Shown: in pieces, positions 3,440 through 19,829 of the stretch
Layout: every line of letters starts with the position of its first letter
How positions within the stretch are numbered: position 1 is the first letter of the stretch
Virus record (IMG/VR): IMGVR_UViG_3300031566_014029
Coordinates: 1 to 35,439 of that record
Length of the DNA: 35,439 nt
From: a virus
Direction: 5' to 3' (one strand)
Position numbers and translations under genes: made by a program
Notes under the pieces: generated by a model
What the model saw: the letters and a program-made list of their open reading frames with translations, nothing else
Database searches by the model: none
What the model was told of the DNA's origin: nothing

Positions 3440-3838
3440 GCACGGACAGCAAGCAGTTTGTAGGCTTAAACAGCTGTCATTGTATGAGAATCTAAGTAAA
3501 CGTACAACACGGACATAAAGGATTATGGAGCAAGCGGTTACAACAAGGGCAAAAAGGGGCGTTTTCCTGTCCGGACACGTTTTGTCCGACCCATGTCCGG
3601 TGCACCCCGTTTGCGGCCCGGAAATGCAATCCGGACACGGCCGTGTCCGGGCGGACATGAGCCCCCCCCCTGTTATTGGGCTGGAAACAAGGTTCCCCGA
3701 AAGGGACGTGTCCGGTTCAAACGGCCCGGGTCCTTCCCAATCTTTAACACAACCTGCGGTCGGAAGTGGCGCGCAACGAGTCTTTTTTTTGGCCCAAAAA
3801 CCGTGTCCGTCCGGGGGGGGAAGGGGGGTTTGTCTATA
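3440..3838. promoter_or_regulatory. Non-coding region with clustered CCGGACACG/CGTGTCCGG sites
   Basis: About 400 bases without a convincing gene. The 9-mer CCGGACACG or its complement CGTGTCCGG occurs at 3571-3579, 3631-3639, 3642-3650 and 3707-3715, with an 8/9 match at 3802-3810. Shorter TGTCCG/CGGACA cores occur at 3583-3588, 3594-3599 and 3652-3657. The site at 3568-3577 is the palindrome TGTCCGGACA, and 3631-3650 is a perfect 20-base palindrome, CCGGACACGGCCGTGTCCGG. Poly-C (3661-3670) and poly-G (3813-3820) runs are also present. Such a cluster could be operators, recombinase arm sites, a partition (parS-like) site or a second origin. Proximity to the recombinase and to ParB-type proteins makes these plausible, but none is shown. 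Confidence 0.65.
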
Positions 3839-4027: not shown

Positions 4028-4582
4028 ATGAATGAGCAAAAGCCATTATTCGACACAAAAGATACGCAGCAAAGCATTGAGTGTAAAAGGTGCGGTTTGC
4101 CTTGCAGGTTGTCGGGCCAGCCGGGCGAAAAGGCAAAAATGTTACGCTTTGCCCAGGGCCCCGGCTTATGCGTCAATTGTGCTGTCCACGATTGGCTTAG
4201 AAACACTTATCCAGTCAACTTGATATTTACGACATTAAGCCCCGATGCGCTTCGATTAGAACATATTCAGCAACAGTTCGCAGGTATTATGCGAGCTGGT
4301 TTCGCGGATGCCTCTCCTGATGAGATTGACTGGGAGGCGATAATCACCAACTGGGATTTGCCTTTTAAGAATAAGGTAAAAGGTACGCCGATGAATCCGG
4401 CTTCGCAGGAAGTGTTGGATATGGAGCCGGAAATGCAGGCAAGAGACGAAGAGTTCTTTAGAGAAGAAATGATTGCACATGATGAGGGATTTGAGAGTTT
4501 GCATCATAAACGGCAAGCCGAGCGGAAAAGAATAATTGATGAGGAGTTTTTGCCGTTATTACGAAAAATGGGTGAGGAATGA
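4028..4582 (+). CDS. Unknown protein with N-terminal zinc-ribbon-like cysteines
   Basis: 184 residues, ribosome site GAAGGTGA upstream. Residues 19-51 contain C19-x2-C22-x3-C26 and C48-x2-C51, a treble-clef or zinc-ribbon-like arrangement that would bind one zinc ion. The remainder is acidic and helical, with a Glu/Arg-rich C-terminus. The last codon overlaps the next ATG (ATGA at 4579-4582). A nucleic-acid or protein-interaction role is typical for such ribbons; the exact role is unknown. Confidence 0.6.
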   Translation: MNEQKPLFDTKDTQQSIECKRCGLPCRLSGQPGEKAKMLRFAQGPGLCVNCAVHDWLRNTYPVNLIFTTLSPDALRLEHIQQQFAGIMRAGFADASPDEIDWEAIITNWDLPFKNKVKGTPMNPASQEVLDMEPEMQARDEEFFREEMIAHDEGFESLHHKRQAERKRIIDEEFLPLLRKMGEE

Positions 4583-5299: not shown

Positions 5300-5734
5300 A
5301 TGAGAGTGGAAGACAGAACTGGGGTTATGAAACCGAAGGATGATAAAACCCCGAACATAATCTGTATCTGTGAAGATGAAGCTGAAAGCCAGATTGTCGA
5401 TTTGCTGGGTAATCCGGAAGATAAAGTGACCGGCGAATTGCACCTGGCCGACGGCTACGGTGAATTCTATGTTAGGTTGGAGCCATATACCAAACCGGAA
5501 GCGGGGAAGTTTACGAATGAAGTCAGGCAATTTATCATTCGCAAGACGGCCATCGAGGGGATCGACAACCTTGAGAAATTTTTATCTGAGTACGGGGCGT
5601 ATATGACACAGGCCCTGGACCATCTCGATACAGCAAATGCTTTGAATGAGCATTTTGTGACTGTAATCCATGAGGTTATTGAGCGAATGGATGAAGAGCC
5701 GGCAAAAGAGATTCTGAGAAAGGCGTTGATATGA
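5300..5734 (+). CDS. Unknown acidic phage protein
   Basis: 144 residues with the ribosome site GAAAGTGAGGTGA upstream. Acidic N-terminal half with ICICEDEAESQIVDLLG, and a helical C-terminal half (EKFLSEYGAYMTQALDHLDTA). No family recognised. The stop overlaps the ASCH gene start (ATGA at 5731-5734), so the two are likely co-translated. Confidence 0.55.
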   Translation: MRVEDRTGVMKPKDDKTPNIICICEDEAESQIVDLLGNPEDKVTGELHLADGYGEFYVRLEPYTKPEAGKFTNEVRQFIIRKTAIEGIDNLEKFLSEYGAYMTQALDHLDTANALNEHFVTVIHEVIERMDEEPAKEILRKALI

Positions 5735-6075
5735 AGGCGATTAGTGTCAGACAGCCGTGGGCGTCCATGATTGCACAGGGCAGTAAAACGATCGAGACGC
5801 GGACCTGGTCGACCAATTACCGGGGGGACCTGCTAATTGTGTCATCGAAAAAACCAATTTTCCCAGGCCTGCCTTCCGGCAAGGGTCTGTGCGTGGTGAG
5901 ACTTTTTGATTGCCGGCCGATGACGGCGGACGATGAGTCAGAGGCCCGGTGTTCATGCTATGAAGGGGCCTGGGCCTGGTGCCTTGACTATCGCCGGCGG
6001 ATTGTACCGTTCGCAGTCAAGGGAGCCTTGAGCTTTTACGAAGTGGCAGACAATCTAATTGAGTTAGACAGTTAG
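5731..6075 (+). CDS. ASCH domain protein
   Basis: 114 residues. The N-terminus MKAISVRQPWASMIAQGSKT followed by IETRTW and YRGDLLIVSSKK is the typical ASCH-domain opening. ASCH proteins adopt a PUA-like beta-barrel and bind RNA or modified bases; some members are nucleases or hydrolyse N4-acetylcytidine. The conserved Lys/Glu pair (K-T-I-E) near residues 19-22 is present. Encoded within the early accessory block beside DUF1643. The exact substrate is unknown. Confidence 0.85.
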   Translation: MKAISVRQPWASMIAQGSKTIETRTWSTNYRGDLLIVSSKKPIFPGLPSGKGLCVVRLFDCRPMTADDESEARCSCYEGAWAWCLDYRRRIVPFAVKGALSFYEVADNLIELDS

Positions 6076-6085
6076 CGAGGAAAAC

Positions 6086-6208
6086 ATGGGTAATTTAAGA
6101 AGGGGCAAAAGGTCGTTGGTCGACAGGGACGGCCGGAAAAAACTAAAAGGGAAATGGGGACAGCTGGCGATTAAAGCCATTGTCACCCGCAAAAGAAAGG
6201 ACTCTTGA
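6086..6208 (+). CDS. Very small basic protein
   Basis: 40 residues starting at the ATG at 6086, with GCGAGG just upstream. Strongly basic (LRRGKRS, GRKKLKGKWGQ, VTRKRKDS), suggesting nucleic-acid contact. The stop TGA (6206-6208) overlaps the next ATG (6208-6210) by one base. The short length limits confidence, but spacing and ribosome site support it as real. Confidence 0.45.
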   Translation: MGNLRRGKRSLVDRDGRKKLKGKWGQLAIKAIVTRKRKDS

Positions 6209-6414
6209 TGGGTAATAGCGACAAGGTAGTGGTTGAGACAACCATAACGAGACGGACGAGAAAGAAAGGGGCGAGCTCCAGCCTGGGGACGGCCGACATC
6301 ACGCTGACCTCTGAGCAGGAAGGGAAAATTGACCTATGGATGGACGAAGCCGAGACGGTGCGCATAACCATGCAGCCGATTCAAAAAAAGCTGTTCGACA
6401 AAGATAAACAATGA
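6208..6414 (+). CDS. Small unknown protein
   Basis: 68 residues from the ATG at 6208 (AAAGGA at 6196-6201 as ribosome site), in a TGATG overlap with the preceding mini-gene. It has a basic N-terminal part and a more acidic C-terminal part. No family recognised. The stop overlaps the following cysteine-cluster gene (6411), continuing the tightly packed operon. Confidence 0.5.
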   Translation: MGNSDKVVVETTITRRTRKKGASSSLGTADITLTSEQEGKIDLWMDEAETVRITMQPIQKKLFDKDKQ

Positions 6415-6689
6415 GTTGTGAGCGTTGCGGTAAATGCTGTAAAGAAGTTGGCGGTTCCGCGTGGACGTCCAGTCCCCACCCTTTAATCAAGGCAATAAAC
6501 GCAGAGTTGCCTTTAGAGTTCTACACGGACTTCGGTGCTTGCGACATGCTTGTTGTTGCGGAAAGCGGCCGGGCCACTTGCCTGCTGCAGCAGTGGCTCA
6601 GTCACAAGGCAAAGCCGCAAGTCTGTAGGGAATACCCGGACGGCGAGAAATGTTTTTTGCAAAAAGAAAAGGAGTTAAGTCATGGCTAA
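6411..6689 (+). CDS. YkgJ-like cysteine-cluster protein
   Basis: 92 residues starting with MSCERCGKCC, the C-x2-C-x2-CC signature (Cys3, 6, 9, 10) of the YkgJ/UPF0153 putative zinc- or iron-binding family. Further cysteines lie at 44, 57, 72 (QVCREYP) and 81. The usual second-half motif C...YP...C is recognisable. The biochemical role of the family is not established. It overlaps the downstream ParB-PAPS reductase gene by 8 bases, so the two may function together. Confidence 0.75.
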   Translation: MSCERCGKCCKEVGGSAWTSSPHPLIKAINAELPLEFYTDFGACDMLVVAESGRATCLLQQWLSHKAKPQVCREYPDGEKCFLQKEKELSHG

Positions 6690-7986
6690 ACCAACAGCAG
6701 AAACGACGATTGTACCTGAAATCAAAAAGTTTAACGTAAAAGACATTAGGCCGGCGGAATATAACCCCAGGACGATCTCCAAAGACGCCTTGACCGGCCT
6801 TACTAATTCGATAGGGCAATTCGGCTGCGTCGAGCCTATTATTGTGAACGTCCGGGGCGGCAAAAATGTCATTGTCGGGGGACACCAAAGGCTCAAAGCC
6901 ATAAAGCGTCTCAAGCAAAAGTCGGTCGTTTGTGTCACGGTGGACCTGGACAAAAAACAGGAAAGGGCCCTAAACATCACACTGAACAACCCCGAGATAC
7001 AGGGCTCGTTTATTGCCGACATGGTAGAGCAGCTGGACAAGCTACGAAGAGATATCGGCGACACGGAATTTGCTCAGCTGCGGCTGGACAAGCTCCGGGA
7101 GCAGCTGGAGCAAAGGGAGCAAGAAAATAAATTCCATTTTCGCCCCGGGGAAGGTGCCATCAAGTTTGCCGGGGGGCTTGCCGGCTACAAGCTAAAGAGG
7201 GCGGAGATTCGCAGGTTCGATAAGTTTGAAAACTTTATTTTGGATTTCTCGGGTGGTAGGGACTCGACCCTGGCCCTGGCCTGGATGGCGGAGTATTTCC
7301 CGGATAAGAAACTATACGCCGTTTATAGTGACGTAGGCGTCGAATTCCCCGGGATGGGGGCCCACATAGAAAAGACCTGCGACTTTTTCAAGGCAGAGTG
7401 CGTCATATTGAAACCTAAAAAGGAATGGTGGGCGTGGCTGCGACAAGAGGGACAATGGCCGTCCCTGATCTACCGTAAATGTCAAACAGAATTTATTTTC
7501 AAGGTGACAGGGGCGTTTAGAAAGAAATTCCCGAAAGAAACGACTCTTTTGCTCGACGGCAGCCGGGGGAATCAATCGACGAGGGGAAGCAAGAAAAGTC
7601 TCGTCTCCCCATTAGGTAGCCTGCCTGGGTTCGAGGCTTACCATCCCTGCTTCAATTTGACCGACGCGAACGCAGAGCAGCTGCTAACAGATTTTAAGGC
7701 CCCGCTTTGGGAAGGGTACTCGATGGGCTTCGTCCGTAGTGCTTGCTGGTGCTGCCCGGGCCAGTGCGGGCTCCAGGCCCTTGCCCTTGAAGAAAATTAC
7801 CCGGGCCTGGCCAACAGCATCCGGCGGTGGGAAAAGATTCTCGGCATAATTAAGCCGATGAATGACCGCAGTTTCGATGACACCGTCCGGGCCGGCCGAA
7901 AGCAACGGCAGCAGCAGGCAAAGAAGGCGGCTACCGTCTCGAAGCCAAAAAAAAAGACAAAAAAAAAGCGTAGCGTTAAAAAATAA
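6682..7986 (+). CDS. ParB-like / PAPS-reductase-like fusion (IbrB-IbrA type)
   Basis: 434 residues with two domains. Residues about 15-145 are a ParB/sulfiredoxin-like domain (NPR at 28-30; GGHQRLKA at 66-73). Residues about 165-390 are a phosphoadenosine-phosphosulfate-reductase-like PP-loop ATPase domain (SGGRDS at 190-195; YRKC at 264-267; DGSRG at 292-296) with a C-terminal cysteine cluster, CWCCPGQC (355-362). The tail 405-434 is Lys-rich. In E. coli prophages the separate proteins IbrB (ParB-like) and IbrA (PAPS-reductase-like) act as a pair that activates prophage gene expression; related pairs are common in phages. Here both are one chain. Chemistry on DNA, RNA or sulfur is possible but undetermined. 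Confidence 0.85.
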   Translation: MAKPTAETTIVPEIKKFNVKDIRPAEYNPRTISKDALTGLTNSIGQFGCVEPIIVNVRGGKNVIVGGHQRLKAIKRLKQKSVVCVTVDLDKKQERALNITLNNPEIQGSFIADMVEQLDKLRRDIGDTEFAQLRLDKLREQLEQREQENKFHFRPGEGAIKFAGGLAGYKLKRAEIRRFDKFENFILDFSGGRDSTLALAWMAEYFPDKKLYAVYSDVGVEFPGMGAHIEKTCDFFKAECVILKPKKEWWAWLRQEGQWPSLIYRKCQTEFIFKVTGAFRKKFPKETTLLLDGSRGNQSTRGSKKSLVSPLGSLPGFEAYHPCFNLTDANAEQLLTDFKAPLWEGYSMGFVRSACWCCPGQCGLQALALEENYPGLANSIRRWEKILGIIKPMNDRSFDDTVRAGRKQRQQQAKKAATVSKPKKKTKKKRSVKK

Positions 7987-7994
7987 CGCTACGC
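7968..7994 (-). terminator. Perfect 11-bp hairpin with U-tract on the minus strand
   Basis: GCGTAGCGTTA (7968-7978) and TAACGCTACGC (7984-7994) are perfect complements around a five-base A loop. Read on the minus strand, the hairpin is followed at once by a run of nine T, then GTC, then another T run, which is a strong intrinsic terminator for the leftward operon. For the rightward gene the hairpin contains the stop codon (7984-7986) but lacks a following T-tract. The U-tract is supplied by lysine codons of the ParB-PAPS reductase gene. Confidence 0.85.
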
Positions 7995-8046
7995 ATGGTT
8001 AGTAACTTTTGTTCTTTGACAAGTTAATAAGATTTTTGAACCTGTG

Positions 8047-8193
8047 TCACTTAGACGGCTTTTTTTCGAAATGCCTTTGTAGGATTTCCCGAGCGACTTG
8101 GGCCGGGCTGGCCGGCTCTTTGCGTTTTCGGGCTTCTTCCCACAGTTTCCGCCAAATGTTGTCCGGCACCTGTATTGGATGTCTCTTTGCCAT
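8047..8193 (-). CDS. Small ribbon-helix-helix-like DNA-binding protein
   Basis: 48 residues, start ATG at 8193 with AAGGAG upstream on the minus strand. The sequence MAKRHPIQVPDNIWRKLWEE followed by a helix and VAREILQRHFEKK fits the beta-strand, helix, helix pattern of CopG/Arc-type ribbon-helix-helix regulators. Such proteins dimerise and bind palindromic operators, often controlling their own promoter. A palindrome lies directly upstream (8219-8237), within a promoter-like region. It is the last gene before the terminator at 7968-7994. Confidence 0.65.
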   Translation of the reverse strand: MAKRHPIQVPDNIWRKLWEEARKRKEPASPAQVAREILQRHFEKKPSK

Positions 8194-8218
8194 TTGGTTG
8201 CTCCTTAATTTATACAGT

Positions 8219-8259
8219 TAACCATGTAGACATGTTACCTGTATTCGGGAAGAGGTCAA
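8219..8259 (-). promoter_or_regulatory. Candidate promoter with overlapping palindromic operator
   Basis: On the minus strand TTGACC (8259-8254) is followed after 16 bases by TAACAT (8237-8232), a plausible -35/-10 pair for the ribbon-helix-helix gene. The -35 overlaps the stop of the DUF523 gene. TAACCATGT (8219-8227) and ACATGTTA (8230-8237) form an inverted repeat with one bulged base that covers the -10, a natural place for autorepression. Inferred from sequence only. Confidence 0.45.
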
Positions 8260-8675
8260 TAGTTTTTTACTTCAATTCCGTTTTTTCTCAGCAATTCCCC
8301 GGTAAATCCGTTTACGTCACAAGAAGGGGACCCGCGACACAGAAATGCCTTTAGGCAGCCTTTGTCCCGGGCGATGGCCAGGACCTTTTCGGCTCCGTCG
8401 ATAAATTGAGCCGATAGGTCCTGGCCCTGGACATTAGAGATTTTAAGGCCGAACTTCCGCCGAAGCGGTGCGGCCGGCCTGGGGACGGTCATGCCTGCCA
8501 GTAATTCAGGGCAGACAAATACGAGCTCGTATTTTTTCTCTAAGCGGTCCAAAAGACTTTGACGAGAACGAGCCAGGCCGTGATAACGGCAGGGCTTGCC
8601 GGTCCAGCACAAACTGACCAGGACCGGGGGCTTATCCGGTTCGTTGCCGAATAGGGTCTTTGGCGGGGTAGTCAT
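8256..8675 (-). CDS. DUF523 / TudS-like protein
   Basis: 139 residues from the ATG at 8675, which overlaps the clamp-loader stop (ATGA). The family landmarks appear in order: SLCWTGKPCRYHG (Cys23, Cys29), VCPELLAGMTVPRP (Cys55), GQDLSAQFIDGA, LKAFLCRGSPSCD (Cys119), and a final GFTGELLRKNGIEV. DUF523 includes the 2-thiouracil desulfurase TudS, where three cysteines hold a 4Fe-4S cluster that removes sulfur from thio-nucleobases. Conserved Cys-Tyr-Gly and SPSC motifs make a cluster-binding enzyme likely. A phage copy within a ParB and clamp-loader operon is unusual. The substrate is not known. Confidence 0.8.
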   Translation of the reverse strand: MTTPPKTLFGNEPDKPPVLVSLCWTGKPCRYHGLARSRQSLLDRLEKKYELVFVCPELLAGMTVPRPAAPLRRKFGLKISNVQGQDLSAQFIDGAEKVLAIARDKGCLKAFLCRGSPSCDVNGFTGELLRKNGIEVKNY

Positions 8676-9319
8676 AACATTTCTCCAGCTTCGACTTTTT
8701 GTAACATCATTCGACAATTGTTTCGGCACTGCCTTGCCAGGGTAATATAGTCGATTAAGGGCCGGCCATCTAACTTTTCTTTCTTCGCTATTTTCTTGCA
8801 AAGGATAGCGAAGGACCGGCACAATAGCCGATGGTTGGCAAGCTCAATCTGAATACAGCGTGACAGCAGCGGCAGGGCGTCGGCCTGGGTGTCGCAGAAA
8901 AACTCCCCTGATTTACGGCCAGCCGTAAAGATAAAAACGACATGGTCGGGGATTCGTTCCAGGACGCCGAGCAGCCAGCGGATCTCCGGCTTGCGTAGGC
9001 CGTGTGCTTCGTTTATAATGAAGGCCCGACCGCCTTTGCCTGTAGAGTAAAGGTGCATACTGTCTTCTATGCGTTTGGTTGTATCAGCAAGCATCAGGGC
9101 GGCCGGCGAGTCGAATTCTTCAACGAAGAACTCATCGGCCCCCTGGCTTGCGATAATCTTAGCCAGCGTGGTCTTGCCCAGGCCGCTGTCGCCGGCAATC
9201 CAAAAGGCCCGGCCACCCCATCCGCGACGCAGGACCGCCCGGACCTGTTTTAAGGCCCTGGTTTGCCCAACAACGTCCTGAAATAGCCGGGGCCTGTACT
9301 TTTCATATAGTTGTGTCAT
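8672..9319 (-). CDS. Clamp-loader-like AAA+ ATPase (DnaX/RFC small-subunit type)
   Basis: 215 residues from the ATG at 9319, with AGGAG just upstream; a longer in-frame extension to 9385 lacks a ribosome site. The N-terminus LYEKYRPRLFQDVVGQ is the characteristic opening of DnaX and RFC clamp-loader ATPases. Walker A is GDSGLGKT (43-50), the Walker B region FIINEAH (100-106, with Asn-Glu in place of the usual Asp-Glu), sensor 1 near FIFTA (129-133), and an SRC motif like the trans-acting arginine finger at 153-155. It lacks the large C-terminal collar of full DnaX. It may load a sliding clamp or act as a DNA-remodelling helicase loader in phage replication. Confidence 0.85.
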   Translation of the reverse strand: MTQLYEKYRPRLFQDVVGQTRALKQVRAVLRRGWGGRAFWIAGDSGLGKTTLAKIIASQGADEFFVEEFDSPAALMLADTTKRIEDSMHLYSTGKGGRAFIINEAHGLRKPEIRWLLGVLERIPDHVVFIFTAGRKSGEFFCDTQADALPLLSRCIQIELANHRLLCRSFAILCKKIAKKEKLDGRPLIDYITLARQCRNNCRMMLQKVEAGEML

Positions 9320-9321
9320 GT

Positions 9322-9690
9322 TTAGGCTCCTGTGGCTAATTTTGTGCGTTCTGGCGACGTCTCTGACAGCAACGCCTTTGCACAAAGGTTTCGGGGGTTC
9401 TTTTCGTTGCGGACAAACAAGCGGCGGACCGCTATGCTTAGCTTTTTAGCGTTCGCGGTCCCCACGTCCCCTTTGACGGGCAGGACGTGCTTAAATGTCC
9501 GCCACACGGCCAGGCTGAGTTTGTTGGCGTTCCGGGCCCCGTATCGGCAGAGCCAGCGGTCCCGGATTATTCCGGCGTCCCGGTCTATGCCTTCCCGGCG
9601 GAGCGGCCCGGTGGCCGCGTAATCGCGTAGCCACCGAGCCCGAACGGCCTGGGTTTCTCTGTTTCTTTGGTAACGTGACATGCGAATCAT
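9322..9690 (-). CDS. Basic unknown protein
   Basis: 122 residues; the ATG at 9690 overlaps the ParB stop (ATGA at 9690-9687) and the stop is two bases from the clamp-loader start. Very rich in Arg and Lys. It has two similar segments, NANKLSLAVWRTF and NAKKLSIAVRRLF, which look like an internal repeat with a helix of the same register. A nucleic-acid-binding partner of its neighbours is plausible. No family recognised. Confidence 0.6.
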   Translation of the reverse strand: MIRMSRYQRNRETQAVRARWLRDYAATGPLRREGIDRDAGIIRDRWLCRYGARNANKLSLAVWRTFKHVLPVKGDVGTANAKKLSIAVRRLFVRNEKNPRNLCAKALLSETSPERTKLATGA

Positions 9691-11351
9691 TTCTTTTTAC
9701 TCCCTTCGGTTTTTTTGCCGGTGGTTGTTTTCTTGGCTGCTTTGCTTTTGGCGGTTTTCTTTGTTTGTTTCTTGCCGGCGGTCTTTGGGGTGCCATCTTC
9801 GTTGAGCTTTGCCCAGGATTTGGGCTCCGGCATTTCGTCGGCAATCTTTTTGCGTAGCGGGCCTGTATCGACACCGAACAGGCCGACAAGGTTTACAGCT
9901 GCTTTCACCCGATAAGAGGAAGTCTGAGTCACCGGGCCCATATAGTCCAGGGTCCGTAACAATTGAGGCAACACGTTTTTCCATAAACTGTCGCGGACTT
10001 CGGACGCTTTTTGAGCAGACAGCTTCGCCAATTTCGTCCAGGGGACTTGCACGTCGGCACCGCTGTTTTGGAAATCGCAGACGGAGTGACTATAAAGTTC
10101 CTTCACCCCGAAAATTTCAGCCAGGGCCATTACCATCGAGGTCTTGTCTTTGACGACCAGGTCTTTTGTGCCTTTGCCTTTTACAACGGTCTTCATTTTT
10201 TCGAGGAATTGGGCGTCTCGTTTGCTGTTAAGCATCTCGCGACGGACCCGCAATGGCGTCGGCGTACCTTTTGTCTTTTTATCAGTCTTTGCCGGTGCGG
10301 TGCTTTTGACCTTAATCCACAGGATTGTCCCCAGGGCCTTGCCGTGAATGATAAAGCCCGGGACGGACCCTTTGTCCTTCTTAGAAGCCTGGCTGTAATA
10401 ATAATGCTCCAGCACTTGGGGAAAGGCTTCAATTAAGTGTCGTTTTATGTGGTTGTCCAGGTATTCAGTGGAAATCGGCAGCAGGTCGGGCTGCTCCGCC
10501 TTTTTGGCTTCATAGGTTGCTTTGAGCCATTCGGCTATTTTCGTGTCCCAACAGAGCCGGTCAAGGCAGCGGTCGTTTTTCTTGATGGCGGCATCGTCAA
10601 GCTTATCGTCGAAAAGTCCCGGCTGGCAGCTGGTTCTTTTCTGGCACTTTGTGCAGCCGGCTACTTCCGGATTGAATGGGGCCAGGCTGAGCAGCTGCAG
10701 CATTTCAGCAACTTGGCCTTCCAGTTCTTTTACTGTGGGGACTTCCTCTTCCATTTCATGCCACTCAAGCAGTTCTGCCTGCATCGGTTCCGGCAAAGAA
10801 GCAATCAGCTGCAAGTGAGCAGCCGTCCAGTATTGAAGTTTGCCATATTGCCCCTCTTTCAAGATGGCTTCCTGCCAGGGCTGGCTTAGCTTTGTCCCCA
10901 GGGCCCGTCTCCGGAGGACCCATTTAATAGACCGTCCGAGCTTCGAGGCGACGGCCTGGGTGTCGCCGTTGTATTTCTCATACAAGGTGACTACGGCTCT
11001 GCCCTGCTCCAGTGCGGTCAAGTCCTCTCGGGCAAAGTTTTCGGCAAAGGTGATTTCGAAAGCCTGTTCGTCGCTGATTTCGCCCCGGTTGATTGCCGGG
11101 ACCATTTCGAGCTTTGCGGCTTTTGCCGCCAGGAGCCGGCGTTCGCCGGCCAGTAGATCGAATTTGCCTTTCATTGTTGGGTGCGGCCGGACGTGGACGG
11201 GGACAATGACCCCCTGGCCCTTAATGCTTGCGACCAATTCCTTGAAACTGTCCGTCTTTTCGCTGATGAATCGCGGGTTGTCCTTCGAGGGGACAAGGTC
11301 ACGGACGGCCAACTGCTCCAATACTTCCGTTGTTTTTGTTTTGTTTTTCAT
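9687..11351 (-). CDS. ParB/RepB/Spo0J family protein, large phage form
   Basis: 554 residues, start ATG 11351 with AGAAAGGA upstream. The ParB N-terminal domain has NPR (25-27), AGERRLLAA (68-76) and ENFAREDLTALEQG (104-117), the usual boxes, followed by a helix-turn-helix (about 128-150). A cysteine cluster C233-x2-C236-x5-C242 and C262-x4-C267 follows, as in the larger ParB-related proteins of plasmid and phage cassettes. The C-terminus (about 515-554) is a Lys/Thr-rich tail. True ParB proteins bind parS and hydrolyse CTP for segregation; phage relatives may be regulators or nucleases. No ParA is visible in the window, so partition is not demonstrated. Confidence 0.85.
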   Translation of the reverse strand: MKNKTKTTEVLEQLAVRDLVPSKDNPRFISEKTDSFKELVASIKGQGVIVPVHVRPHPTMKGKFDLLAGERRLLAAKAAKLEMVPAINRGEISDEQAFEITFAENFAREDLTALEQGRAVVTLYEKYNGDTQAVASKLGRSIKWVLRRRALGTKLSQPWQEAILKEGQYGKLQYWTAAHLQLIASLPEPMQAELLEWHEMEEEVPTVKELEGQVAEMLQLLSLAPFNPEVAGCTKCQKRTSCQPGLFDDKLDDAAIKKNDRCLDRLCWDTKIAEWLKATYEAKKAEQPDLLPISTEYLDNHIKRHLIEAFPQVLEHYYYSQASKKDKGSVPGFIIHGKALGTILWIKVKSTAPAKTDKKTKGTPTPLRVRREMLNSKRDAQFLEKMKTVVKGKGTKDLVVKDKTSMVMALAEIFGVKELYSHSVCDFQNSGADVQVPWTKLAKLSAQKASEVRDSLWKNVLPQLLRTLDYMGPVTQTSSYRVKAAVNLVGLFGVDTGPLRKKIADEMPEPKSWAKLNEDGTPKTAGKKQTKKTAKSKAAKKTTTGKKTEGSKKK

Positions 11352-11409: not shown

Positions 11410-11643
11410 TTACGATTTCTTCTTTCGGTAAACGCCGGGCCTGGTGAACGCGATTTCACCTAAGTCCCTAAGACGCTGCAGCTGCTGTCGTATCTTTGCC
11501 TTGATGTTTTGGTTGCCGGGGTGCCGACGCTGGAATTGCCGGCATTTGCCGTAAACATCGGCCAGCTTAAAGGTCCGGCCAGGCAACCTGGATACGACGT
11601 TGCGCACGTCCTGCTGCCAGCTGATTCTCTTTTTCTTTACCAT
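11410..11643 (-). CDS. Stand-alone winged-helix protein like the DpnI C-terminal domain
   Basis: 77 residues, start ATG 11643, ribosome site AAGGAGACA upstream. The pattern W-x-x-DV near residue 9, F-x-LADVY, then NQNIKAKIRQQLQRLRDLGE and IAF...GVYRKK closely follows the C-terminal winged-helix domain of DpnI and related Dam-replacing endonucleases, where it recognises methylated GATC. Here no nuclease domain is attached. It may be a sequence- or methylation-sensing regulator. It is preceded by a hammerhead ribozyme about 98 bases upstream. Confidence 0.7.
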   Translation of the reverse strand: MVKKKRISWQQDVRNVVSRLPGRTFKLADVYGKCRQFQRRHPGNQNIKAKIRQQLQRLRDLGEIAFTRPGVYRKKKS

Positions 11644-11740
11644 AATTCATGTCTCCTTAAATTGAAGTTAGCATTGTACGGAAAACTGTAGAAAAAAACA
11701 GAAAAAAGTTGTATTCTTGTTATAAATGCAGGATTGGCTT

Positions 11741-11800
11741 GTCTCATCAGCGGCCGGGTTGCCGTCCCTGCCGGACCCGGCCAGCCGGCCGGGTTTCGAC
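11741..11800 (-). ncRNA. Type II hammerhead ribozyme, copy 1
   Basis: Read on the minus strand: GUC (stem II 5' arm), GAAA (11797-11794), stem III with 7-bp arms CCCGGCC/GGCCGGG closed by GGCU, UC (11775-11774), then stem I (CGGC/GCCG, an A/G internal pair, GGG/CCC, loop ACGGCAA), CUGAUGA (11750-11744) and GAC (stem II 3' arm). Every core nucleotide of the hammerhead (C3 to A9, G12 to A14, A15.1-U16.1, cleavable C17) is present. Cleavage is predicted between 11774 and 11773. It lies nine bases past the stop of the 167-residue gene and upstream of the winged-helix gene. Confidence 0.9.
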
Positions 11801-11809
11801 TTTGGCTTT

Positions 11810-12313
11810 TTATTCGGCAGCCAAAAGAATCCTGTCAATAACAGCGTGACGACCTGGTTCAATAGCTTCGGGAAAAACGACGGTTTCTTCACAATCGCTG
11901 CTGTTATTGGGCGGGGCAATCGCCAGGACATTGCCGAGCTCGAAGAATGGATTCAACAGACCTGTCTCAATCCATACTTTGATTTCCAGGGGCAAGCCGA
12001 CAAAGTTATAGCAGGCATTGCCCCGCATAATGTTGCCGGTTTCGGAATCGCATTTAATCGGCTGGTCCCATCCATCAAAGATAGCTCCGACAAACGGCAG
12101 CATCGGTGCTGATTGATAGTGTCGAGATTCCAGTGGCAAGATAAACATTTTTCGGCCCCTGGGTTTCGAGAAGATAACGGAATTGCCATCGTCCCGAATC
12201 TCTTTAACCTTGATTTCGGTTTTGCAGGTCATGGCCATTCCCTCAGAAATCTTATAAAGCGTGTACTTGCTGCCGACCTGGAAAATGTTTTTTAGCTGTT
12301 CTTTCTTTTCCAT
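11810..12313 (-). CDS. Unknown protein between two ribozymes
   Basis: 167 residues, start ATG 12313 with TTAAGGGGACA upstream, a leader shared with neighbouring genes. Mixed alpha/beta composition with FILPLESRHYQSAPMLPF, MRGNACYNFVGLPLEI and a C-terminal GRHAVIDRILL. No signal peptide or membrane segment is evident, and no family was recognised. Its message would be bounded by hammerhead copy 2 upstream (12350-12406) and copy 1 downstream (11741-11800), so after self-cleavage it would be monocistronic. Confidence 0.65.
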   Translation of the reverse strand: MEKKEQLKNIFQVGSKYTLYKISEGMAMTCKTEIKVKEIRDDGNSVIFSKPRGRKMFILPLESRHYQSAPMLPFVGAIFDGWDQPIKCDSETGNIMRGNACYNFVGLPLEIKVWIETGLLNPFFELGNVLAIAPPNNSSDCEETVVFPEAIEPGRHAVIDRILLAAE

Positions 12314-12349
12314 CTTGTGTCCCCTTAAAAAAGTTTTCGGTTTTGGCTT

Positions 12350-12406
12350 ATCTCATCAGCGGCCGGAAGCCGTCCCGACCGGACCGGCCTTGCGGCCGGT
12401 TTCGAT
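12350..12406 (-). ncRNA. Type II hammerhead ribozyme, copy 2
   Basis: Minus strand: AUC, GAAA (12403-12400), stem III CCGGCC/GGCCGG with a GCAA tetraloop, UC (12383-12382), stem I beginning CGGU and ending GCCG around CGG/CCG, CUGAUGA (12359-12353), GAU. Stem II is AUC/GAU where copies 1 and 3 have GUC/GAC, a compensated base-pair change. Predicted cleavage is between 12382 and 12381. The stop codon of the 83-residue gene (12409-12407) abuts the element directly, and the next gene starts 37 bases downstream. Confidence 0.92.
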
Positions 12407-12658
12407 TTAGCTTAAATGCCATCTTTCGTTTCGCCTTTGGGTTAGTATTTTTTTTGCGGCCCTAAAACCGTTGGACCGCAAAACTATTGAGGCACATTTC
12501 GCGACCAACCCCGAGGGGAAAGAACATTGCCGCCAAGGCGTCACGAAGTTAAGCAATATATCCGATGGCTCTAATCCATGCGATTTGGCCACGACTTGCT
12601 TTACTTGTTTGGTTATTTCGGCTCGTGTGAAATAGCCATCCTTAATTTTACTTCTCAT
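12407..12658 (-). CDS. Small unknown basic protein
   Basis: 83 residues from the ATG at 12658, chosen because TTTAAGGAGACA lies just upstream; the frame is open further to 12748 but without a ribosome site. N-terminal helical region (FTRAEITKQVKQVVAKSHGL), then a cysteine-containing middle (RQCSFPSGLVAKCASIVL) and a basic C-terminus. No known family. The stop TAA is immediately followed by hammerhead copy 2. Confidence 0.55.
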   Translation of the reverse strand: MRSKIKDGYFTRAEITKQVKQVVAKSHGLEPSDILLNFVTPWRQCSFPSGLVAKCASIVLRSNGFRAAKKILTQRRNERWHLS

Positions 12659-12681
12659 TTTGTGTCTCCTTAAATTGTTGG

Positions 12682-12771
12682 TTACTTTTTGAGGTTGACT
12701 ACCACGGCCAGGCCCAGGAAAAAAACAGGCAGGCACAGCACGCAGCAAATACGAACGATTGCGGTTTCCAT
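12682..12771 (-). CDS. Tiny membrane peptide
   Basis: 29 residues (ATG 12771, stop 12684-12682) with AAGGGGACA as ribosome site, the same leader as the genes around it. The peptide is a single hydrophobic helix with three cysteines (RICCVLCLPVFFLGLAVVV) ending in NLKK, so it probably inserts in the inner membrane. It is the first gene of the leftward operon and lies 36 bases downstream of hammerhead copy 3. It could alternatively be a leader peptide with a regulatory role. Confidence 0.5.
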   Translation of the reverse strand: METAIVRICCVLCLPVFFLGLAVVVNLKK

Positions 12772-12806
12772 TTTTGTCCCCTTCTTTTTGAATTCCCGTT
12801 TGGCTT

Positions 12807-12864
12807 GTCTCATCAGCGGCCGGGTTGCCGTCCCTGCCGGACCCGTCTCACAACGGGTTTCGAC
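12807..12864 (-). ncRNA. Type II hammerhead ribozyme, copy 3
   Basis: Minus strand: GUC, GAAA (12861-12858), stem III CCCGU/ACGGG with loop UGUGAG, UC (12841-12840), stem I identical to copy 1 (CGGC/GCCG, GGG/CCC, loop ACGGCAA), CUGAUGA (12816-12810), GAC. Stem III differs completely in its distal part from copies 1 and 2, yet pairs. Predicted cleavage is between 12840 and 12839. It sits in the 5' leader, roughly 100 bases downstream of the presumed promoter and upstream of the first small gene. Confidence 0.92.
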
Positions 12865-12962
12865 TTGCGTCTAAGTTTGGGTTTTTATAGGCCACGCCGT
12901 TTTCCAGGCCCCGCCACACCCAACACCCGATTCAATTGTCAAAGATGTTTAATTTTATAACT

Positions 12963-12997
12963 GTTACAAGTTTACAAGTTTACAAGTAAACGGTCAA
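12963..12997 (-). promoter_or_regulatory. Candidate leftward operon promoter with 8-base direct repeats
   Basis: On the plus strand GTTACAAG (12963-12970), TTTACAAG (12971-12978) and TTTACAAG (12979-12986) are tandem 8-base repeats, and GTTTACAAGTAAAC (12978-12991) is an inverted repeat with 6-base arms. On the minus strand TTGACC (12997-12992) is a -35-like box, with TAAACT (12974-12969) 17 bases away, or the better TATAAA (12960-12955) further on. Repeats overlapping a promoter suggest an operator. The whole stretch is AT-rich and lies between the divergent leftward operon and the terminase genes. Confidence 0.5.
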
Positions 12998-13063: not shown

Positions 13064-13720
13064 ATGGCAAAAAAAAATAAAAATTTAGACCCCGGGACCC
13101 CGGGGGCGACAGTCCGTTTAGCCGAAAAACAACGCCACATGTCTTTGCTCGAAAAAGTTACCCACAACGAAACCTTGACCCGGCCCGAGATAACCGAACT
13201 CGCCGAGCTCGAAGGGAAAGAGGACAGGGAAGCGGGGACCCGGCAGAGCCGGGCAAAGGTGGTGGTGGCGGCGGAGCAAATCCTGCGGTCCCAATCGGAA
13301 GCGGCCCGGTATGCCGGCGTTAGCGACCGGACGATTCGGCGTTGGGTACAAGCGGGGATGATGCGCACGGACAAAAACTATTATATCAAAAGCCAGCTGG
13401 ACGTCTTTAAGGAGAGCGAGGGACATCGCCCGAACGAGCACAACCTACGGAAGCTCAAGGCGGAGGCGACACTGAAAGAGGGCAAGGTCGAGCTGATTCA
13501 GATGCAAATCGAAAAGTTCCGGGACATACTTGTCAACCGGGAGGAATACTTAAAGCATGACGTGGCAAGAATCATAGCGGTCAAGCGGGGCCTGCTTAGC
13601 CTGGAAAGAAAGGTGGCACCGAAGGTCCCCGCAAAGTACCGCCGAACTGTGGCAACTGCCATTCACGCGGAAGTCGTTAACTTAATTAACGCCTTTGCCG
13701 AGGGTAGGGAAGTCCCCTGA
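13064..13720 (+). CDS. Terminase small subunit (putative)
   Basis: 218 residues from the ATG at 13064; a TTG at 13043 is also possible. An N-terminal Lys-rich stretch precedes a helix-turn-helix (SEAARYAGVSDRTIRRWVQ), the DNA-recognition element expected for a small terminase, then a long charged helical region (LKAEATLKEGKVELIQMQIE) suitable for oligomerisation. It overlaps the large terminase start by one base (TGATG). It should bind the packaging site, which is probably in or near the preceding AT-rich region or within this gene. Confidence 0.75.
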   Translation: MAKKNKNLDPGTPGATVRLAEKQRHMSLLEKVTHNETLTRPEITELAELEGKEDREAGTRQSRAKVVVAAEQILRSQSEAARYAGVSDRTIRRWVQAGMMRTDKNYYIKSQLDVFKESEGHRPNEHNLRKLKAEATLKEGKVELIQMQIEKFRDILVNREEYLKHDVARIIAVKRGLLSLERKVAPKVPAKYRRTVATAIHAEVVNLINAFAEGREVP

Positions 13721-15693
13721 TGAAAAAGGCAAAACCGTCAATCTGGACTCCAAGACACAAGGAAGCGTGGCGGCTGCCGGTGGACGTCACTGTCACCCAG
13801 TGGGCGGACGGCGGCAACCGGTTCCTTGACCCGGACACAAGCGCGGAGCCAGGGCCTTATCATTCAGACCGGACGCCGTACATGCGGGGGCCGATGGAAG
13901 CGTTCACCGACCCCGAGGTCGAAGAAATCGACGTGATGGCCGCGTCCCAGGTAGGGAAATCTACGTCCATACAAAACATGATAGCTTATACGGTCGACAA
14001 TGACCCCGGACCGTCCCTTTACGTTGTGCCCCGGGAGAAAGATGTCGATTATGCCTCTCAGAAAATCTTCCGGCAGATGATCTCTCTTTCCCCTGCATTG
14101 TTAAAGCATACGACGGGCAGTCCCCGGGACATGCAGACGGACTTCTTTACTTTCGATAGAATGACCCTGTATTTCGGTTGGGCCGGCAGTCCTTCGGAAA
14201 TGGCACAGAAGGCGATTAAGTACCTATATTTTGATGAGCCGGACAAGTACCCACCATTCGCCGGCAGGGAGGCGAACCCAATTGATTTGGCGGTCAAGAG
14301 GACCCGGACCTTTTGGGACCGTAAGATTGTCAAGATGTGCACGCCCACGACGGAAGACGGTTATATTTACGTCTCTTATTCCCATTCGAACAGGCAGAAA
14401 TACCACATTCCCTGTCCCCACTGTGGGGAACGCAAGGTTTGGAAATTCTCACAGCTGAAATTGCCGAAGACATTGAGGGCCCCGGACGAGATACTTGCCA
14501 GGGCCGACGTCTGGTATGAGTGCGAAGTCTGCGGAACAAAAATCTACGAGGAAAAAAAAGCAGACCTGGTCATCGAGGGCAAGTGGGTCCCCAAAGGACA
14601 GACGATAGACGCGGACGGCAACATTCACGGCCGCCCGGAACGCACCAAGCGGCACAGCGGCTTTCATATCTCGGGACTTGTCACGCCCTGGATTAGCTGG
14701 GCCCAAATTATGGCGGATTGGTTCAAGGCAAACACGGAGGTGGGGATCGCCCTGGGTAAATTGCTCGACTTCAACAACGCTACCCTGGGAGAGCCACACA
14801 GGGAGACGGGCAAAAAGCTTAAGGCGTCCGATGTCCGCAAGCTCACCGGGGGATTCAGCCGGGGCACGGTGCCGAGTGACGCCCATATTCTCGTAGCGGG
14901 GGCTGATTATCACAAATCCAAAACAAGGGCCATTGTACGAATCGACTACGAAGTGCGGGCCTTTGGGCTCGGGATGAAAAACCAGGTTATAACGACCGGC
15001 TCTGTCCCGAGCTTTTCAAAGCTCGACGAAGAAATTTTATTGAGTCCCTTTCCCTGGGCGGACGGGACCCCGAACGAAAAAAAGCCGTGGCCGGCAGTGA
15101 TGGTCCTGTTCGTAGACTCAGGCTACGAGCCGGACGATGTTTACAATTATTGTCTGCAAAGGCCGGGGCTCACAATTCCAACTAAGGGGGAAGCGGGCCC
15201 GAGAACTAAGCCCCTGCAGCCGTCCGACCTGGAAAGTGCCACCGAACGCAGATTGACGCAATACAAAAGGAGAAAATACAGGGGGATGCAGCTGCTCATT
15301 ATTGACGCGTCGTATTTCAAAAACCAGGTGACAGGTTGGGCGGAGCCGACTTTCGACGAGAACGGCAAGATTATTGCCGAGCCCTTGACTTCTTTTTATG
15401 AGGAAATACCTTCGTATTATTTCACCGAATTTACAAACGAGCACAAAGTAAAGACCCGCGACTCCCGGGGCAATATCAAATGGCTGTGGCAGCCGGTGAC
15501 AAGGGGGGCCCCGACCCATACGCTGGACCTGGCTGTGCTCTGCGCTGCAGCGGCATATTACAAAGGAGTCCATTACCTACGAAAGCCCCAGGAAGCCAAA
15601 GCCGTTATGCCGGCAGCCATGCGGCAAATACCAAAACCAAAAAAACGCAAAACCAGCCGGTCAACATGGCTGGCAGATTTACCGGAGCTATGA
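13720..15693 (+). CDS. Terminase large subunit, lambda gpA type
   Basis: 657 residues, the usual gpA length. ATPase: Walker A AASQVGKS (74-81) and Walker B YLYFDE (168-173). A zinc-binding insert is visible as C232-x2-C235 (PCPHCGERK) and C268-x2-C271 (CEVCG). The nuclease half begins with VAGADYHKSK (Asp396), continues with VMVLFVDSGYEPDDVY and ends near THTLDLAVLCAAAAYY. The enzyme cuts concatemeric DNA and drives it into the prohead through the portal, together with the small subunit upstream. The gpA family usually goes with cos-type packaging, so cohesive ends are likely. Confidence 0.95.
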   Translation: MKKAKPSIWTPRHKEAWRLPVDVTVTQWADGGNRFLDPDTSAEPGPYHSDRTPYMRGPMEAFTDPEVEEIDVMAASQVGKSTSIQNMIAYTVDNDPGPSLYVVPREKDVDYASQKIFRQMISLSPALLKHTTGSPRDMQTDFFTFDRMTLYFGWAGSPSEMAQKAIKYLYFDEPDKYPPFAGREANPIDLAVKRTRTFWDRKIVKMCTPTTEDGYIYVSYSHSNRQKYHIPCPHCGERKVWKFSQLKLPKTLRAPDEILARADVWYECEVCGTKIYEEKKADLVIEGKWVPKGQTIDADGNIHGRPERTKRHSGFHISGLVTPWISWAQIMADWFKANTEVGIALGKLLDFNNATLGEPHRETGKKLKASDVRKLTGGFSRGTVPSDAHILVAGADYHKSKTRAIVRIDYEVRAFGLGMKNQVITTGSVPSFSKLDEEILLSPFPWADGTPNEKKPWPAVMVLFVDSGYEPDDVYNYCLQRPGLTIPTKGEAGPRTKPLQPSDLESATERRLTQYKRRKYRGMQLLIIDASYFKNQVTGWAEPTFDENGKIIAEPLTSFYEEIPSYYFTEFTNEHKVKTRDSRGNIKWLWQPVTRGAPTHTLDLAVLCAAAAYYKGVHYLRKPQEAKAVMPAAMRQIPKPKKRKTSRSTWLADLPEL

Positions 15694-19262: not shown

Positions 19263-19829
19263 ATGAATGACAAAAACAAAGGCTTGATGAAATTCAAGTC
19301 CATGAAAAAGCTCAAGGAAGCTTACCCGGAACTAATGGGAAAGATAATCCTTGAGGCAAAGGCCGACGCGGCCAAAGAGGTCGCGGCAATGCCGCTGCCG
19401 GAATTCAAAGCCGCCTTTGGTAAGCTCTACGCGTCAATAGCGGCCGGTGGAGCCGACGGGGATGCTGCCATCCTTGAAGCAAAGGCCGAAGCAGCCAGGG
19501 AGATCGCCGCCCTGTCGGTTGGGCAATTCAAGAAAACCTTTGGCAAGCTCTACGAGGCAATAGCGGCCGACGTGGCCGGTGATGTCGACGCGGCCTCTTT
19601 GAAGGTGAAGGGTTTTCTGTTGGACCACGAGGACCCCTTTGCAGCCGGGGCCGCCAGGGCATACGCAGCGGCCAAAAAGAAGGAGACGCCCTTTAGGCTG
19701 CCGATTGTTTTGCCGTTCAAGGACCCGGACTCGAAGATTGCACTCGCCAGCTATATTCAGCGGGCAGGCGGGGCCGGTGACACCGACCGGGTAAAGGCAG
19801 CTGCGGACGCCTTGGAGAAATGTAAATAG
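19263..19829 (+). CDS. Scaffold-like protein with internal tandem repeat
   Basis: 188 residues, ribosome site AAAAGGGG upstream. Residues 29-61 and 70-102 are tandem copies of about 33 residues (ILEAKADAAKEVAA...FGKLYASIAA versus ILEAKAEAAREIAA...FGKLYEAIAA), 41 residues apart. The N-terminus YPELMGKIILEAKAD resembles the start of the nested scaffold (YPELFGDVTAKAKAE), so this may be a duplicated scaffold segment. A C-terminal part (RLPIVLPFKDPDSKIALASY) is unrelated. A structural or assembly role is likely from position; no named family. Confidence 0.6.
   Translation: MNDKNKGLMKFKSMKKLKEAYPELMGKIILEAKADAAKEVAAMPLPEFKAAFGKLYASIAAGGADGDAAILEAKAEAAREIAALSVGQFKKTFGKLYEAIAADVAGDVDAASLKVKGFLLDHEDPFAAGAARAYAAAKKKETPFRLPIVLPFKDPDSKIALASYIQRAGGAGDTDRVKAAADALEKCK

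Follow-up and report, generated by a model that had tools for sequence, protein, structure and literature searches.

The role of self-cleaving ribozymes in phages is a long-standing question, and the closest described systems are clusters of hammerhead ribozymes carried by prophages. Perreault et al. (2011; PMC3088659) described and assayed interleaved or clustered arrays of this kind, one of them a triple, in which several hammerheads flank single genes or short blocks of genes, and the cutting of long phage transcripts was proposed there too. The A. tumefaciens triple around ardA cleaves in E. coli, and the arrays of C. scindens and A. caulinodans cleave in vitro (PMC3088659). A single hammerhead, HHphage, lies just upstream of an early-gene start in the haloviruses HF1 and HF2, where the mapped 5' end is at most 3 nt from the cut (PMC3088659). 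Among engineered systems, RiboJ (a hammerhead plus a hairpin in the 5' UTR) increases protein output two- to tenfold and roughly doubles the transcript (PMC6206723). Moreover, a passage in PMC4604425, citing Weinberg 2015, notes that the genes of one ribozyme class are located in the vicinity of another class and of particular phage genes.

Here we analyze a virus record from IMG/VR, the whole 35,439-base stretch of which is called the window below, with three hammerheads at the head of a gene block. The array is an example of a known, poorly understood way to cut a long phage message into separate ones. It resembles the prophage clusters in flanking single genes or short blocks and differs from them in the genes concerned, and in that those ribozymes were assayed and found active while the window copies are known from sequence alone. 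An earlier note on this DNA had considered three tandem copies between genes to be out of the ordinary. That judgement is not supported, as gene-flanking triples in prophages had been published with assays in 2011, and the phages examined here hold as many as 13 copies in one array; since other phages carry arrays longer than three, three copies are not exceptional, and the window array is itself ordinary among known gene-flanking phage hammerhead arrays. What the window led to are three handles on the older question: a fixed ribozyme geometry at gene boundaries, the replacement of one ribozyme class by another there, and two cultured phages, R4 (9 copies) and Paedore (13 copies), that would allow direct measurement of cleavage and of what it does to expression.

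Identity and Structure of the Three Elements

All three elements lie on the minus strand within 1.1 kb, and are named here copy 3 (12807-12864, first in the transcript), copy 2 (12350-12406) and copy 1 (11741-11800). Re-reading of the sequence bears out the earlier description of their parts: every copy runs from the 3' strand of stem II through GAAA, a closed stem III, UC, a closed stem I and CUGAUGA to the 5' strand of stem II, and all three have an intact conserved core, made up of CUGAUGA, GAAA and a UH where the cut falls. A descriptor scan likewise finds stems I and III closed by loops and a 3-bp stem II left open in each copy. Stem III has 7 bp and a GGCU loop in copy 1, 6 bp and GCAA in copy 2, and 5 bp and UGUGAG in copy 3, each with an additional A15.1-U16.1 pair. 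Copies 1 and 3 have GUC/GAC as stem II, and copy 2 has AUC/GAU. The stem lengths, loops and stem II pairs are exactly those that had been claimed, and the predicted cut sites, after 12840 (copy 3), 12382 (copy 2) and 11774 (copy 1), coincide with the positions given before. Each element is followed on the same strand by a 3' tail able to pair with loop I. In copy 2 the tail AAGCCAAAA (12341-12349) pairs with GGCUU in a 5-bp pseudoknot (GGCUU/AAGCC), and the tails of copy 3 (AAGCCAAAC, 12798-12806) and copy 1 (AAGCCAATC, 11732-11740) offer GCC to the GGC of loop I, for 3 bp; the pairings were read from the sequence and from a pseudoknot search. When the copy 1 fragment is folded in isolation (11741-11800), the minimum free energy structure is not a hammerhead, the strands of stem III pairing with those of stem I.

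A covariance search, which the earlier note had proposed as a check, places Rfam family RF02276 (Hammerhead_II; gathering score 37 bits) at all three elements, with two copies above that score and one below it. Using cmscan, copy 2 is matched at 12341-12407 (44.7 bits, E 3.7e-6) and copy 1 at 11733-11801 (37.3 bits, E 3.3e-4), while copy 3, at 12798-12865 (34.9 bits, E 1.4e-3), falls 2.1 bits short; no other Rfam family was found at E up to 1. The likeness to RF02276 extends to the core, the three stems, the open stem II, the closed stems I and III and a tail able to pair with loop I. The differences are the sub-threshold score of copy 3 and the 3-bp pseudoknot of copies 1 and 3, where most members of the family have at least 4 pairs. 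A strict descriptor of core plus stems matches the whole window exactly three times, at these copies, and had no match in 600 first-order Markov versions of the window and two in 4 Mb of shuffled loci. A chance origin was considered and is ruled out by the shuffled windows, the shuffled loci and a scrambled-core control. Taken together, the Rfam model, the exact core and stems, the shuffled controls and the wider family described below uphold the earlier identification and support the assignment of the three minus-strand elements, as sequences, to the type II hammerhead ribozymes.

The Operon and Its Boundaries

On the minus strand, the genes between about 12.8 and 8.3 kb form a block with the three ribozymes at its head, which reads ORF1, ORF2, ORF3, ORF4, a ParB-like gene, a small ORF, a clamp-loader-like AAA protein and a DUF protein with a 2-thiouracil desulfurase-like domain; a GpA-type terminase (13720-15693) lies on the plus strand. 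ORF1 (12682-12771) would encode a candidate hydrophobic peptide of 29 aa, METAIVRICCVLCLPVFFLGLAVVVNLKK, with GAAGGGGAC upstream. ORF2 (12407-12658, 83 aa) and ORF3 (11810-12313, 167 aa) have no match in Pfam or the PHROGs. ORF4 (11410-11643, 77 aa) consists of a DpnI_C (Dam-replacing HTH) domain alone (PF17726, E 2.1e-22), and the next gene on the strand (9687-11351, 554 aa) is identified as ParB-like by PF02195 and PHROGs. The earlier note had all three copies separating genes of one operon. This applies to copy 2, between ORF2 and ORF3, and to copy 1, between ORF3 and ORF4, but copy 3 stands in the leader before the first gene; the ORF1/ORF2 and ORF4/ParB boundaries have no ribozyme. The stop codon of ORF2 directly abuts copy 2 (0 nt) and that of ORF3 is 9 nt from copy 1, and the next start codons are 35, 36 and 97 nt beyond copies 3, 2 and 1, respectively.

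From the order of the genes we infer that genes and ribozymes share a single transcript, the only promoter match being a weak sigma-70-like candidate (9/12 matches) upstream of copy 3 at 12969-12997 on the minus strand; sites of this kind occur close to the chance rate in the window (six, vs 3.4 ± 1.8 in shuffles). Three tandem ACTTGTAA-type repeats (12966-12996, minus strand) lie upstream of copy 3, where the region is divergent, and are possibly operator sites. The spacer between copy 1 and ORF4 (11644-11740, minus strand) is unusually long at 97 nt, is T-rich, contains TACAAT and could hold a further promoter. An exact pattern built on the window's own three copies had no match in IMG/VR, the ParB gene as a query found no relatives, and searches by these two routes found no relative of the window phage with the same three copies.

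Arrays in Other Phages

When IMG/VR was scanned with the strict type II pattern, at least 120 stretches matched, as opposed to three in total with a scrambled-core version of the same pattern. The sampled loci and the window together hold 198 copies. Among 115 loci, 31 have at least two copies and 17 at least three, fractions that apply to loci selected for carrying at least one copy and not to phages in general. The long arrays in the sample are confirmed by Rfam. One of them belongs to the cultured Streptomyces phage Paedore (L084, also L141), of which Streptomyces phage R4 (L140) is a relative. R4 has 9 hammerheads above the gathering score, and Paedore 13, made up of Rfam matches plus two from the descriptor. 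Both arrays are like that of the window in being of type II, on one strand and at gene boundaries, and differ from it in copy number and in belonging to phages in culture.

Selection on RNA Structure

The earlier note had read the preserved pairing as strong evidence for selection on structure. On the three window copies alone that evidence is weak: copies 1 and 3 are 90% identical across a 60-nt stretch, although their stem III sequences differ, and as near-duplicates they are not independent. It becomes strong across 172 distinct phage copies, in which all stems pair and nearly every variable position shows several pair types (for the second pair of stem III, CG 79, GC 65, AT 20 and TA 6). 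The outer stem pairs are demanded by the descriptor and the pairing statistics at those positions lean on it, but positions outside this demand are paired as well, namely the fourth pair of stem III in 169/172 copies and the fourth to sixth pairs of stem I in 165, 145 and 150/172. The pseudoknot between loop I and the tail is not part of the descriptor. In the 44 distinct loop/tail combinations with no AGCC in the tail, its mean length is 4.3 bp, vs 2.95 when loops and tails are re-paired at random (highest mean in 200 trials, 3.41 bp). Over all copies the contrast is weak (4.44 vs 3.95 bp), because most copies share one consensus. Finally, alignments of R4 with Paedore, read by eye, show that corresponding copies have diverged in stems I and III through changes on both sides of a pair.

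These observations bear on two explanations in which catalysis would matter little. If the ribozymes were selfish or near-neutral passengers, duplicating between genes wherever a cut is largely harmless, then duplication within a phage, as between copies 1 and 3, and copy numbers that differ between related phages (9 in R4, 13 in Paedore) would be expected; the explanation is nonetheless an unlikely one, given that corresponding copies of R4 and Paedore keep function via paired changes and that an exchange of class at equivalent boundaries, described below, would be unexpected. The shared 60-nt stretch of copies 1 and 3 could also be taken to mean that such boundary repeats act in DNA, as recombination points for the exchange of gene cassettes, with catalysis incidental. 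A functional census of 141 proteins encoded downstream of hammerheads agrees with this in finding great diversity and no dominant family (the largest Pfam family has 5 members). Selection at the RNA level is needed to account for intact cores, for stems that vary and still pair, for a pseudoknot that covaries and for recourse to an unrelated class of ribozyme, and we regard a role in DNA as highly improbable.

Position Relative to Genes

Across the sample, the ribozymes hold a consistent place between genes. An ORF precedes 168 distinct copies, and for 138 of these it stops no more than 30 nt away, vs 13% of random positions; the median gap from stop to ribozyme is 2 nt. The next Shine-Dalgarno sequence and start follow at a median of 25.5 nt downstream of the ribozyme (interquartile range 23-31.5), and adjacent copies are on one strand in 83/83 pairs. 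The spacings of the window copies given above conform to this arrangement. Called sense ORFs of at least 100 aa appear to enclose 41/173 copies, vs 58% of random positions; the caller extends each ORF to the first possible start, and the R4 annotation illustrates how a gene can come to be drawn across a ribozyme. In the GenBank annotation of Paedore, 12 of the 14 gaps longer than 45 nt contain a hammerhead and no copy falls inside an annotated CDS.

A Second Ribozyme Class at Gene Boundaries

ORF3 (11810-12313) is a member of a protein family without earlier description, which shares a conserved MRGNACYNFV-like motif. It has only two homologues in IMG/VR, in the loci L004 (49% identical over 160 residues) and L006 (44%), and searches of annotated phages and plasmids gave no match. 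Four genome contigs from a motif search were considered as further relatives and are not homologues. AlphaFold, supplied with the three sequences, returned a pLDDT of 33, and its model was set aside. In L004, Twister-P5 ribozymes (RF02684) are found at the last codons of the ORF3 homologue and at the end of the next gene (Rfam 53.4 and 47.2 bits), with the next starts 23 and 16 nt downstream. Their fold is unrelated to that of the hammerhead, and they resemble the window copies in their position relative to the stop and the next start and in a P1 hairpin that closes the upstream end. No recognized ribozyme was found in the neighborhood of the homologue in L006, and the exchange of class beside this gene is seen in one homologue only.

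The two classes also occur together in a single operon. On the minus strand of locus L122 (IMG/VR record G029), 5300-10821 holds ten ribozymes, four Twister-P5 (T) and six type II hammerheads (H), that follow one another along the transcript as T H T H H T H H T H. Most neighboring ribozymes have one gene between them, one interval has two, and the tenth ribozyme (G029:32817-32875) sits in the gap between two called genes. L004 and L122 were the only ones of 33 records searched to contain Twister-P5, so class mixing is uncommon in this sample. The exchange suggests that what is kept may be cleavage at the gene boundary and no particular ribozyme class.

In L004 the stop codons overlap the twisters (gene ends at 4364 and 4700, twister starts at 4360 and 4696). 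Together with the 2-nt median gap of the hammerheads, this would fit cleavage gated by translation, in which a ribosome halted at the stop codon would hide GAAA and one half of stem III, so that the ribozyme would cut mainly if the upstream gene were untranslated and would act as a sensor. Against it, a compact genome alone would also give tight packing, no gene precedes copy 3, and copy 1 sits 9 nt past its stop; such gating seems to us improbable. A broader conjecture, which we put forward tentatively and with considerable doubt, is that phages use a class-independent punctuation unit (stop codon, hammerhead II or twister P5, ribosome site, start codon) with translation-gated cutting. Its class-independent part draws on one homologous gene and one mixed ten-ribozyme operon, and its gating part on spacing alone.

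A Proposed Role in Dividing Phage Transcripts

The best explanation, and in our view a probable one, is that type II hammerheads cut the nascent transcript in cis into separate mRNAs with hairpins at their ends. The identity of the ribozymes, their position at gene boundaries, their coherence of strand and the presence of another class at the same kind of boundary are features read from the sequences themselves; cleavage in the cell, protection of the ends and an effect on expression are what we infer. Each copy in the window would cut the minus-strand transcript co-transcriptionally, copy 3 trimming the leader, copy 2 cutting between ORF2 and ORF3 and copy 1 between ORF3 and ORF4, to leave messages for ORF1-ORF2, for ORF3, and for ORF4, ParB and onward. 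The type II permutation would put closed hairpins on both sides of the cut, with stem III at the new 3' end and stem I at the new 5' end. The upstream message would finish with its stop codon followed by stem III, with a 2',3'-cyclic phosphate at the end, and the downstream one would carry a 5'-OH, then stem I, then a leader with a Shine-Dalgarno sequence. Twister-P5 also would place a closed hairpin, P1, on the upstream end, because its U-A cut (site taken from PMC6154101) follows the 5' strand of P1; this permutation is read from the Rfam consensus. The likely benefit would be separate, end-protected messages with uniform leaders, each gene's expression being set independently, and the arrays may split an extended early transcript into units that are protected at their ends and uniform in their leaders.

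RtcB-type ligases accept 5'-OH and 2',3'-cyclic phosphate ends. The cut pieces might on that account be circularized or re-ligated into small circular or spliced RNAs, to which we give hardly any credence, as Perreault et al. looked for spliced and circular products and detected none (PMC3088659).

The leader copy has two close parallels. The leader hammerhead of the RiboJ insulator yields a uniform 5' end starting near a hairpin (PMC6206723, PMC7536230), a geometry shared by copy 3, in which stem I would stand at the predicted new 5' end, followed by GAAGGGGAC and then the ATG of ORF1 35 nt downstream; RiboJ differs in being engineered, with its hairpin added separately. HHphage is similar in lying just upstream of a start, and differs in being a single copy with a variant core in an archaeal virus (PMC3088659). 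Several points count against the explanation by transcript cutting: the sub-threshold score of copy 3, the 3-bp pseudoknots of copies 1 and 3 (pseudoknot shortening slowed one characterized type II ribozyme 20- to 100-fold; PMC3088659), the non-hammerhead fold predicted for isolated copy 1, the ribozyme-free neighborhood of the ORF3 homologue in L006, and an exchange of class in a single homologue.

Annotation and Further Features

In R4, annotated CDS overlap several of the copies. Two tiny ones, gp67.1 (3573-3665) and gp75.1 (6521-6622), coincide with ribozymes and are probably not genes, and existing annotations may therefore hide the feature; gp60.1 (1210-1293) overlaps another hammerhead. 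Elsewhere in the window, 6682-7986 encodes a ParB N-terminal domain fused to a PAPS-reductase-like domain, and a 109-nt repeat occurs twice within an ORF at 19347-19578, the two units being 75% identical and spaced 123 nt apart.
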